From: Winogradskyella forsetii
Lineage (GTDB): Bacteria; Bacteroidota; Bacteroidia; Flavobacteriales; Flavobacteriaceae
Reading direction: 5' to 3'
Assembly (NCBI RefSeq): GCF_013394595.1
Contig: NZ_CP053348.1
Location: forward strand, 2,754,001-2,818,000
Length of the DNA stretch: 64,000 nucleotides
The notes under the pieces: generated by a model
Database searches by the model: none
What the model was told of the DNA's origin: nothing
The model's input: the letters and a program-made list of their open reading frames with translations, nothing else
Program-made: the position numbers and the translations under genes
Shown: positions 49,980 through 51,941 of the stretch, piece after piece
Position numbering within the stretch: the first letter of the stretch is position 1
Layout of the letters: each line of letters starts with the position of its first letter

Positions 49980-49982
49980 CAT

Positions 49983-50066
49983 ATTCCATAAAAAAGGCAT
50001 AATTAATAATATTCCGTTTTAAAGGCATATATTTGGTTATTCCGTTTTAAAGGCATATATTTGTAA
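49983..50066 (+). promoter_or_regulatory. Three 28-bp direct repeats forming the promoter of the satD operon
   Basis: Copies begin with ATTCC at 49983, 50011 and 50039, exactly 28 bases apart. Copies 2 and 3 share 25 identical bases (ATTCCGTTTTAAAGGCATAT, then ATTTG); copy 1 is diverged (ATTCCATAAAAAAGGCATAA). Copies 2 and 3 each contain the -7 box TATATTTG (50028-50035, 50056-50063). The last one lies 18 bases before the satD ATG. The repeats look like an operator, perhaps for the helix-turn-helix of SatD itself. Confidence 0.75.
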
Positions 50067-50081
50067 TGAAATATAAATGCT

Positions 50082-50696
50082 ATGACCAGCGTAATAACAG
50101 GCGACATTATAAAATCTAGAGAAGCCATCAGTGAAGATTCATGGCTTATTCCCTTAAAATCGGCATTATCTAAATTATCCAATGATGCCTCATTTTATGA
50201 TATCTATAGAGGAGATAGCTTTCAATTAGAGTCTAATTCCATTGAGGACAGCTTTAGAACATCTGTATATATTAAAGCATTTTTAAAATCCATTAAAGGT
50301 ATAGATGTCCGAATGTCAATTGGCATTGGCACAAAAGATTATGAAGGCAATTCTGTAAGTGAGTCTAATGGTGAAGCCTATATATTTTCTGGAGAAACCT
50401 TTGATAACCTCAAAAAAGAAAAACAAAATCTAAAAATAAAAACCAGCAACAATACACTAAATGAAGAATTAAATCTATATTTTAGGTTGGCATTAATTGC
50501 AATGGATAATTGGACGGTTAATTCAGCAGAAATTGTAAAATTAAGTTTAGAATATCCTGATATGATTCAATCTCAATTGGCTAAAATAATCGGCATTAAT
50601 CAAGATGCTGTAAGCAAAAGGCAAAAACGTGCTTACTTAGATGAAATTTTAGAATTAGATGCCCTTTTCAGAAAAAAAATAGCCACACTACTATGA
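50082..50696 (+). CDS. SatD-family protein (cyclase-like motifs plus helix-turn-helix)
   Basis: 204 residues, soluble. The N-terminal two thirds carry TGDIIKSRE (Asp8), IYRGDSFQLE (Asp45) and DVRMSIGIGT (75-84), in the order and spacing of the metal-binding strand, the G-D hairpin and the R-x-G-x-x-x-G strand of class III nucleotide cyclases and GGDEF-like palm domains. The Asn/Arg helix of true cyclases is not matched (SNGEAYIFSGETFD instead). The C-terminus (about 161-185, MIQSQLAKIIGINQDAVSKRQKRA) is a helix-turn-helix. SatD genes commonly precede DUF3307 genes; function unknown. The cyclase likeness is my reading. Confidence 0.8.
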   Translation: MTSVITGDIIKSREAISEDSWLIPLKSALSKLSNDASFYDIYRGDSFQLESNSIEDSFRTSVYIKAFLKSIKGIDVRMSIGIGTKDYEGNSVSESNGEAYIFSGETFDNLKKEKQNLKIKTSNNTLNEELNLYFRLALIAMDNWTVNSAEIVKLSLEYPDMIQSQLAKIIGINQDAVSKRQKRAYLDEILELDALFRKKIATLL

Positions 50697-51409
50697 CCCT
50701 TATTATTTTAAAACTCATTTTGGCGCATCTTATAGGTGATTTCTTTCTACAACCTCACCAATGGGTTAAGCATAAAGAAAAAAAGAAACTAAAATCAGTT
50801 TGGCTTTATGTGCACGTTGCTCTGCATATTGCATTGATGTTTTTGCTGATTTGGGATTTATCTTATACGCCGTTAATATTAGGAATTGGTCTATTACATC
50901 TTATCATTGATGGTTTAAAACTTATTTTACAGCGCAAAAAAACAAAACGATTGTTCTTTTTTATAGATCAGGTATTGCACATTATTTCCATAATAGGATT
51001 AACGATTATTCTTTATGGTACTGATTTCAATTTTACTGTAGATTTAAGTGACCACTTTATCTTATTGATTATTTGTGTGGCATTTCTAACACAGCCAACT
51101 TCCATTTTCATGAAAACTATTTTTTCTAAATGGAACATTTCTAAGCTTACAAAAGACAACGAATCGCTAAAAGATGCCGGTAAATATATTGGGATTTTAG
51201 AGCGTCTTTTGGTATTTATATTTATCATTGCAGGCCATTGGGAAGCTGTTGGTTTTTTAATAACAGCAAAATCCGTTTTTCGATTTGGTGACTTAACTGC
51301 TTCCAAAGAACGAAAATTAACGGAATACATATTAATAGGCACATTAATCAGTTTTGGTATTGCTATAATTACTAGTTTACTATATTTAAATCTTTTAACA
51401 TATGTTTAA
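50693..51409 (+). CDS. DUF3307 polytopic membrane protein
   Basis: 238 residues, about 6 membrane helices. Seen: AHLIGDFFLQPHQW at the N-terminus, VHVALHIALM, LLHLIIDGLKL, DQVLHI and the C-terminal GKYIGILERLLV and TAKSVFRFGDL. The many conserved-looking His and Asp residues inside or next to helices suggest a metal site in the membrane, an enzyme or a channel. Start ATGA overlaps the satD stop by 4 bases, so translation is coupled. The pairing with SatD recurs in other bacteria. Confidence 0.87.
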   Translation: MTLIILKLILAHLIGDFFLQPHQWVKHKEKKKLKSVWLYVHVALHIALMFLLIWDLSYTPLILGIGLLHLIIDGLKLILQRKKTKRLFFFIDQVLHIISIIGLTIILYGTDFNFTVDLSDHFILLIICVAFLTQPTSIFMKTIFSKWNISKLTKDNESLKDAGKYIGILERLLVFIFIIAGHWEAVGFLITAKSVFRFGDLTASKERKLTEYILIGTLISFGIAIITSLLYLNLLTYV

Positions 51410-51941
51410 AACCACTGAAGATTCCAGAATTCAGATTTCAGAATTAATGAAACCACATCATGCCAATTTCGGTGGAAAAATCCATGGTGGTTATATTTTA
51501 AGTTTAATGGATAATGTGGCTTTTGCTTGTGCTTCAAAACATTCCCGTAGTTATTGTGTCACGGCATCCGTGAATAAGGTCAACTTCTTAAATCCTATTG
51601 AAGTTGGTGAATTGGTGACCATGAAAGCTTCGGTTAATTATGTTGGTAAGTCGTCCATGGTTGTTGGTATTAGAGTGGAGTCTGAAAATATAACAACAGG
51701 CGAAAAGAAACATTGCAATTCGTCTTATTTTATAATGGTCGCAGTGGATGAAGCTGGGAATACTTTAACGGTTCCAGGTTTAATATTAACCAATAAGTTA
51801 GCTGCAAAGCGTTTTATTAAATCCATAATCAGAAAAGAAAGTGATAATAAGCGAAGTGAAGATCTAGAAAGTCTTTATAAAAATGTAGATGAGCATTTGG
51901 AACAGCTTAAAAACTATAATGTAAAAATTGACTTTAAGTAA
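51402..51941 (+). CDS. Acyl-CoA thioesterase, hotdog fold
   Basis: 179 residues. Hotdog domain (about 8-125) with HANFGGKIHGGYILSLMDNVAFACASKHS, the long helix and catalytic acid region of the YciA/BFIT-type thioesterases; the NFGGxIHGG loop binds the CoA. A charged helical tail follows. It hydrolyses acyl-CoA. It overlaps the DUF3307 gene by 8 bases and so is the third gene of the SatD operon; a lipid link for that pair is possible but not shown. Confidence 0.9.
   Translation: MFKTTEDSRIQISELMKPHHANFGGKIHGGYILSLMDNVAFACASKHSRSYCVTASVNKVNFLNPIEVGELVTMKASVNYVGKSSMVVGIRVESENITTGEKKHCNSSYFIMVAVDEAGNTLTVPGLILTNKLAAKRFIKSIIRKESDNKRSEDLESLYKNVDEHLEQLKNYNVKIDFK

Follow-up and report, generated by a model that had tools for sequence, protein, structure and literature searches.

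Within the window (the whole 64,000-nucleotide stretch of Winogradskyella forsetii DNA analysed here), a SatD-like gene and the membrane-protein gene that overlaps its end form a widespread two-gene unit, and the SatD-like protein very probably binds an array of regularly spaced palindromes upstream of its own gene. We consider it fairly probable that SatD is a one-component autoregulator, presumably a nucleotide-sensing repressor of its own operon, a reading in which we infer the dimer, the ligand, the direction of control and the action of the membrane protein. The reading is built on computed results, namely the two-gene unit, the array, the coupling of a DNA-binding helix to the array, the overlap of the array with -7 boxes, the presence of a single such array in the genome, the fold and the conservation of two Asp residues. 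The features concerned are the following.

49982-50001, no strand: candidate operator palindrome 1 (distal), TATTCC-N8-GGCATA, 28-bp spacing
50010-50029, no strand: candidate operator palindrome 2, from the palindrome search
50028-50035, + strand: TATATTTG, fits the flavobacterial -7 box TAnnTTTG, overlaps the last two bases of palindrome 2
50038-50057, no strand: candidate operator palindrome 3 (proximal), from the palindrome search
50056-50063, + strand: TATATTTG, likely -7 box of the operon promoter, overlaps palindrome 3
50082-50696, + strand: SatD-like gene, 204 aa (ORF list, predicted structure, structure and profile comparison); palm/cyclase-like N-domain at about residues 1-144, C-terminal helix-turn-helix at about 146-203
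50601-50630, + strand: predicted recognition helix, SatD residues 174-183, in which residues 179 and 175 track the operator half-site
50616-50618, + strand: codon of residue 179, within the recognition helix
50693-51409, + strand: membrane partner gene, 238 aa, its start overlapping the satD stop (ATGA)
50702-51019, + strand: DUF3307 domain, partner residues 4-109, the apparently replaceable N-terminal half
51059-51400, + strand: C-terminal membrane domain, partner residues 123-236, no Pfam name
51402-51941: thioesterase ORF, 179 aa, a 4HBT thioesterase by Pfam

A conserved two-gene unit

The three open reading frames of the locus (50082-50696, 50693-51409 and 51402-51941) overlap one another, as the first-pass annotation had stated. 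The genome itself, one contig of 4.5 Mb, holds a single SatD-like copy, whose closest named relatives among the matches listed belong to Winogradskyella, at no more than 83% identity. Within the family, a SatD-like match is present in 107 of 199 genomes and absent from the only other member of the genus sampled; all matched genomes have one copy each, that of G051 lying in two pieces. Two sets of loci underlie most of what follows: 106 family loci, which are the 107 matched genomes minus the fragment genome G088 and with the second piece in G051 dropped as belonging to the same locus, and the best 80 named loci of at least 549 confirmed relatives from a collection scan, the two sets having seven genomes in common.

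A DUF3307 gene lies directly downstream on the same strand in 104 of the 106 family loci, the exceptions being L084 and L096, and in 80/80 of those best named loci. Among 296 Bacteroidota genomes, SatD-like genes occur in 81, DUF3307 genes in 77 and both in 73, a co-occurrence with a Fisher p of about 1e-54 with relatedness uncorrected. By matched coordinates (within about 300 bp), 73 of the 77 DUF3307 genes stand directly behind a SatD-like gene, which bears out the earlier remark that the two are often found together. The unit is the SatD-like and membrane-partner pair, and it is widespread. L084 has a SatD-like gene with an array and DUF3307 undetected within 3 kb, and for four of the 77 Bacteroidota DUF3307 genes (L250, L251, L252 and L253) a nearby SatD-like gene was undetected. 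L096 and L238 hold degenerate SatD-like copies in which the two conserved Asp residues discussed below, the array and the DUF3307 neighbour have all been lost.

The thioesterase does not share this constancy of placement. It lies directly after DUF3307 in 7/106 and 32/80 loci and upstream in 11/106 and 24/80, and from this variable position it is taken as a lineage neighbour and rejected as a member of the unit; the suggested link through it to lipids is thus unsupported.

The name SatD-like is used with some care. The window protein has no match to the Pfam SatD model (PF16264, the family of the Streptococcus mutans sat locus) at E<=1, its weak Pfam matches being mostly to DNA-binding domains, nor does that model match anywhere in its own genome. 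On the other hand, 19 of 27 relatives of the protein match the model at E<=1 (best 1.7e-10), and a profile of the window family aligns with a profile of proteins carrying the canonical SatD motif over their full length at 99.4%. Given this profile similarity and the absence of a Pfam match of its own, the protein is called SatD-like rather than a Pfam member. Matches of the single sequence to SOX/HMG-box proteins were rejected as chance-level.

The membrane partner

The DUF3307 domain (PF11750) is recognised in the partner at 88.1 bits over residues 4-109, above the gathering score of 23 bits, and across 46 sequences this half keeps invariant Asp16, His41, His45, His69, Asp73, Asp92 and His96. 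The description of DUF3307 as a six-helix protein was off, in that the predicted structure of the window partner (pLDDT 90, pTM 0.66) consists entirely of helices, in 11 segments, and DUF3307 accounts for only its N-terminal half.

The remaining half has no naming Pfam family and carries the motif IGxLER..AxGFL.xAKSxxRF..EYxxIGT, which is found also in partners without DUF3307. Thus nine of 12 SatD-like genes without an adjoining DUF3307 (L238-L249) have another membrane protein in its place (L239-L242 and L244-L248, that of L247 split in two frames) with the same C-terminal motif and with an N-terminal half that is different or missing; beside the other three (L238, L243 and L249) no substitute membrane partner was recognised. 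Profiles of DUF3307-type and DUF3307-less partners align over residues 123-236 at 99.5%, and the motif recurs in the partners from Vibrio, Salinivibrio, Sphingomonas, Pseudomonas, Agrobacterium, Segatella and two haloarchaea. The constant part of the partner therefore appears, from these alignments, to be the C-terminal membrane domain, with DUF3307 as a replaceable N-terminal part. In four loci (L239, L240, L256 and L257) a short partner of about 120-150 aa consists of the C-terminal membrane domain without DUF3307.

Comparison of the partner model with the PDB gave no convincing match (best Foldseek E 0.75, VIA Z 6.1). Pfam recognised no nucleotide-binding domain in it, neither Pfam nor PADLOC a cyclic pyrimidine receptor domain, and the partner has no PADLOC match and no match to a known effector.

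The palindrome array

Upstream of satD, three imperfect 20-bp palindromes of the form TATTCC-N8-GGCATA follow one another in exact 28-bp steps from 49982 to 50057, an array that the first-pass annotation had missed. The 26 bases at 50038-50063 are an exact repeat of 50010-50035, such that the last two units look as they would after a recent duplication of the 28-bp unit. The exact pattern TATKCC-N8-GGMATA occurs three times in the 4.5 Mb of the genome, each time within this array. A wider regulon was rejected: with up to one mismatch allowed, the pattern finds 46 sites and its reverse 34, and there is no further array. Control by SatD would, on this count of sites, be limited to its own operon.

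The same architecture is found in relatives. In the 106 family loci, palindrome centres recur at 14, 28, 42 and 56 bp in 125, 78, 55 and 35 pairs respectively, where 20 shuffles gave maxima of 6, 4, 3 and 2 and means of 0.7-2.2; the array is a series of half-sites 14 bp apart that alternate in direction. With identical proteins counted once, 179 of the 186 loci were kept, and in 175 of these distinct upstreams the best of 15 candidate pitches is 28 bp (159) or 29 bp (16), shuffles being flat over all 15. L096, L105, L144 and L201 are the four upstreams without such an array. As a control, 12 of 96 upstreams of flanking genes choose 28 or 29, and in the part of the 96 that was rechecked one high-scoring control among the 12 is a satD array read from the divergent gene.

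Further afield, a broader set of 23 loci (including L238-L249, and with the start codons of L202, L203, L236 and L240 chosen by hand) has arrays scoring above all 20 shuffles at a pitch of 28 in Vibrio, two Salinivibrio, Pseudoalteromonas, Agrobacterium, Sphingomonas parapaucimobilis and a Segatella plasmid, and at a pitch of 29 in two haloarchaea; in Sphingomonas insulae (L205) and Pseudomonas fragi (L204) no 28/29 array was found upstream of satD. The 12 loci L238-L249, mostly canonical SatD, are less regular. Only L243 (29) and L249 (28) pass all shuffles at 28 or 29; L242, L244, L246 and L247 choose 28/29 but not above shuffles, L241, L245 and L248 pass at other pitches (27, 30 and 27), and in L238-L240 no pitch was found. 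Set against 175 of 179, this means that the SatD-DUF3307 branch has a firm pitch and that the result for canonical SatD is mixed.

The flavobacterial -7 box is given as TAnnTTTG in the part of the source available (PMC9723704). In 161 Bacteroidota upstreams there are 147 such boxes, against 25.5 in shuffles, with at least one exact box in 104 upstreams and none in 57; 118 of the 147 share one phase, starting at the last two bases of a palindrome, and thus the -7 box, where present, mostly touches a palindrome.

Coupling of the recognition helix to the half-site

Half-sites vary by lineage (TATTCC or TATGCC, TATCAC, TATCG, TATCTG, TATTAG, TATTACC, TATAAGTC and others), and this variation can be compared with that of the protein. 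For this purpose 161 proteins were used, namely the 179 less 18 whose array call was weak or off register. At matched N-domain identity, residue 179 ranks first of 204 columns in tracking operator change (log odds 3.58). Ranks 2 and 3 fall to columns that vary in one sequence, after which come A167 (4th), F58 (5th), 175 (6th) and 176 (7th); because F58 of the N-domain and A167 rank as they do, the signal does not lie purely in the recognition helix. In near pairs, which are disjoint but not tree-corrected, residue 179 differs in 54 of 61 pairs with different operators and in 10 of 66 with the same operator, and residue 175 in 44 of 61 and 6 of 66, where the mean difference over all columns is 0.38 and 0.29, respectively.

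The pairings amount to a readable code, with K179 accompanying CC at half-site positions 5-6, Q179 an A at position 5 and E179 a C at position 4, all of which fit common helix-base contacts. Mapped on a quickly built tree that used only the N-domain, operator class changes 19 times or more. Independent contrasts on this tree gave, among the residue-179 tests listed, 3-5 strictly supported pairs, which on average go in the expected direction with none significant, and the three control residues listed showed weaker or opposite trends; the tree-based contrasts are underpowered for this residue. The earlier suggestion that the DNA-binding tail marks SatD as a regulator gains support from the helix-turn-helix and from the covariation of residue 179 with the putative operator across the 161 proteins.

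Two operator types coexist in 14 of the 186 arrays, 13 of them distinct, since L007 and L141 are one genome. With the exception of L195, the two types occupy separate blocks of a single unbroken 28-bp lattice and are never interleaved (L004, L007, L009, L148, L150, L154, L162, L168, L170, L172, L174 and L193, one site of the last being untyped). The promoter-proximal block fits the present recognition helix in 10 of the 13; in the other three (L009, L148 and L154) the helix carries Asn175 alongside Lys179, and the proximal block is not of the type that goes with Lys179. Such arrays are possibly fossils of a change in specificity, in which duplication of 28-bp units would have shifted the older sites further upstream.

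The N-terminal domain

A palm/cyclase fold for SatD had been predicted beforehand, in a form open to refutation, from the order of its motifs: T-G-D-I (Asp8), R-G-D-S-F (Asp45) and V-R-M-S-I-G-I-G are indeed present in that order and are followed by a helix-turn-helix. The AlphaFold2 model (54 sequences, pLDDT 95.3) agrees with the prediction, having a beta-alpha-beta-beta-alpha-beta core and then the helix-turn-helix, with VIA Z scores of up to 9.9. The matches, which cover SatD residues 1-144, are nearly tied:

GTP cyclohydrolase III: Z 9.9, 3.2 A, 112 residues
GGDEF domains: Z 9.9, 2.8 A, 118 residues
adenylyl cyclases: Z 9.7, 3.4 A, 138 residues
Cmr2/Cas10: Z 9.0, 3.7 A, 130 residues
Y-family polymerases: Z 9.0, 2.5 A, 104 residues

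Foldseek places the adenylyl cyclase MA1120 first at E 0.0016, with none under 0.001, and a profile of the N-domain against PDB sequences likewise has MA1120 at the top (E 0.0023), with Asp8 opposite its FTD and Asp45 opposite its QGD. Compared by hhalign with Bacteroidota class III cyclases, the N-domain profile gave 58% and others 17, 6 and 0.4%, and the full-length profile retrieved mainly helix-turn-helix proteins from the solved structures, together with weak cyclase matches. Sequence matches to cyclases being suggestive, it is the fold that carries the palm/cyclase claim.

Both Asp residues are highly conserved, Asp8 in 105 and Asp45 in 104 of 106 relatives, the check proposed beforehand, and both in 161/161 proteins of the array analysis. 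The class III cyclase motif G-D-A-V-N-L-A-A-R carries the transition-state Asn and Arg; by-eye alignment of the motif places Ile101 and Glu105 of GEAYIFSGE at these positions in SatD, as expected from the first-pass annotation, which had noted that the pair is lacking. In other words, of the hallmarks of class III cyclases, SatD has the palm fold and the two metal-type Asp and lacks the transition-state Asn/Arg. The N-domain is, as modelled, a palm/class III cyclase-like fold with two metal-type Asp residues.

Proposed mechanism and its alternatives

In the mechanism that we favour, one SatD dimer would sit on each 20-bp palindrome of the 28-bp-pitch array before its own gene. Since the array covers the promoter, SatD bound there would most likely repress satD and the membrane-partner gene; repression is the probable outcome of binding, with activation of the operon as the alternative. 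The N-domain, with an intact two-Asp site and no cyclase transition-state pair, would most likely bind a nucleotide and a metal, the ligand setting DNA binding; that this ligand is a nucleotide is, on balance, what the model favours. A change in ligand would then release the operon, allowing the membrane protein to act.

Any reading in which the array belongs to some other factor, or is a mere tandem promoter, and in which the helix covaries by shared descent, is very improbable. It could appeal to the outer TAT of the Bacteroidota half-site, which overlaps the -7 box, to the inflation of covariation by related sequences with few strict tree contrasts, and to the high rank of F58 outside the helix. 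Yet arrays that keep the pitch but have different half-sites precede satD in haloarchaea and Proteobacteria, which are not known to use the TAnnTTTG -7 box, and at matched identity the score of residue 179 greatly exceeds those of the other variable columns, 175 and 176 scoring high as well. An addiction unit of toxin-antitoxin type, with a toxic membrane protein and SatD as both antitoxin and autorepressor, would account for two overlapping genes behind an apparently autoregulatory operator array and for two plasmid copies near toxin-antitoxin genes, but the finding of just one copy in each matched genome of the family and the presence of rmuC beside some loci (6/98 flanking ORFs) make it quite improbable.

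An active nucleotidyl cyclase or oligonucleotide synthetase, the product of which controls the membrane partner in a Pycsar- or Panoptes-like manner while the array tunes dosage only, is a less remote but still unlikely alternative. In its favour are the palm fold, the conserved Asp pair and the match, within about one Z unit, to structures of Cas10/Cmr2 and GGDEF proteins, which are not known to have the Asn/Arg pair. Moreover, one plasmid copy adjoins a Pycsar system, and a soluble palm protein encoded with a membrane protein is what the available part of the Panoptes report describes (PMC12657230). Against this stand a partner without a recognised nucleotide-binding domain, the lack of a clear defence signal in the flanks of 20 Bacteroidota loci, and the presence of the unit in 107/199 family genomes, though not in the one other same-genus genome sampled. 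Beyond the autoregulator reading that we prefer lies a broader and doubtful one, namely an undescribed nucleotide-signalling unit of Bacteroidota, Proteobacteria and haloarchaea, in which the palm protein would make or sense a nucleotide and, as a row of dimers on the 28-bp ladder, would silence a membrane effector gene, with varied N-terminal domains (DUF3307 among them) set on a constant IGxLER-type partner.

Relation to known systems

Autorepressors of toxin-antitoxin systems and phages have their own promoters covered by repeated palindromes; SatD differs from these in its 28-29 bp pitch, in its lineage-specific half-sites in bacteria and archaea, and in its enzyme-fold sensor. With class III nucleotidyl cyclases such as MA1120 it has in common the fold and two metal-type Asp in register, from which it departs in its fusion to a helix-turn-helix as well as in the missing Asn/Arg, by motif reading. 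In Panoptes (mCpol/OptS with 2TMbeta/OptE) a small palm-type enzyme is likewise encoded with a membrane protein, according to the available parts of the reports (PMC12657218, PMC12657230), which mention for mCpol neither a role as DNA-binding regulator nor an operator array, both of which are predicted for SatD. Furthermore, the modelled SatD partner is all helical, and PADLOC matched it to no effector of the S-2TMbeta type known from Panoptes. Pycsar also joins a cyclase-like protein, PycC, to an effector, and PycC has two metal Asp in the part of the account available (PMC11224242); the SatD unit differs from it in having no canonical catalytic pair and no cyclic-nucleotide-binding domain found in the partner. 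A literature search, for which most subscription papers were out of reach, found no description of the array, the SatD fold or the SatD-DUF3307 pair.

Two widespread families of unknown function are thereby brought into one testable module, and a binding site can be predicted in almost all of the close relatives examined. With what seems to be a single target, the regulator may be free to drift in its specificity, and the residue-179 code together with the two-block arrays would then be a natural record of a transcription factor and its sites changing together. Should a nucleotide prove to be made or sensed by the palm domain, the cyclase/Cas10 signalling enzymes would gain a DNA-bound relative.

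Genomic neighbourhood

Defence islands had been put forward as a place to look for the pair. The flanks of 20 of the 80 named loci were surveyed, with at most three ORFs per side of at least 110 aa and ORFs over 600 aa excluded. In the 98 ORFs obtained, PADLOC labels 11 families with 1-6 members each, RmuC having the most, and Pfam returns mainly housekeeping domains (RmuC 6, thioesterase 5, AAA_21 3); on these raw counts there is no clear defence signal around the 20 Bacteroidota loci, and the defence-island reading in Bacteroidota was set aside as lacking clear support.

On plasmids, 4 of 11 loci examined lie near Pycsar/TIR, HipA/HEPN, Rpn or RelE-type genes. The SatD-DUF3307 pair of the Sphingomonas insulae plasmid (L205, 4986-9437) adjoins a Pycsar system with a TIR-domain gene near it, toxin-antitoxin genes are found near the Pseudomonas fragi and Agrobacterium loci, and an Rpn gene near that of Vibrio lentus. 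No defence-labelled gene was seen at the plasmid loci of Segatella, two Salinivibrio, Halorientalis, Sphingomonas parapaucimobilis and Natronosalvus; the region of the Pseudoalteromonas locus is unannotated, and plasmid matches H4, H17 and H19-H21 lie outside the survey. A Pycsar-type defence role is, at most, hinted at by these few plasmid neighbourhoods.

Searches for phage homologues with the SatD and DUF3307 queries, and with the Sphingomonas DUF3307 half, found none. Nevertheless, one PHROGs family matches the DUF3307 half, and a DUF3307 gene is present in a jumbo phage, according to the available part of its description (PMC8504454).
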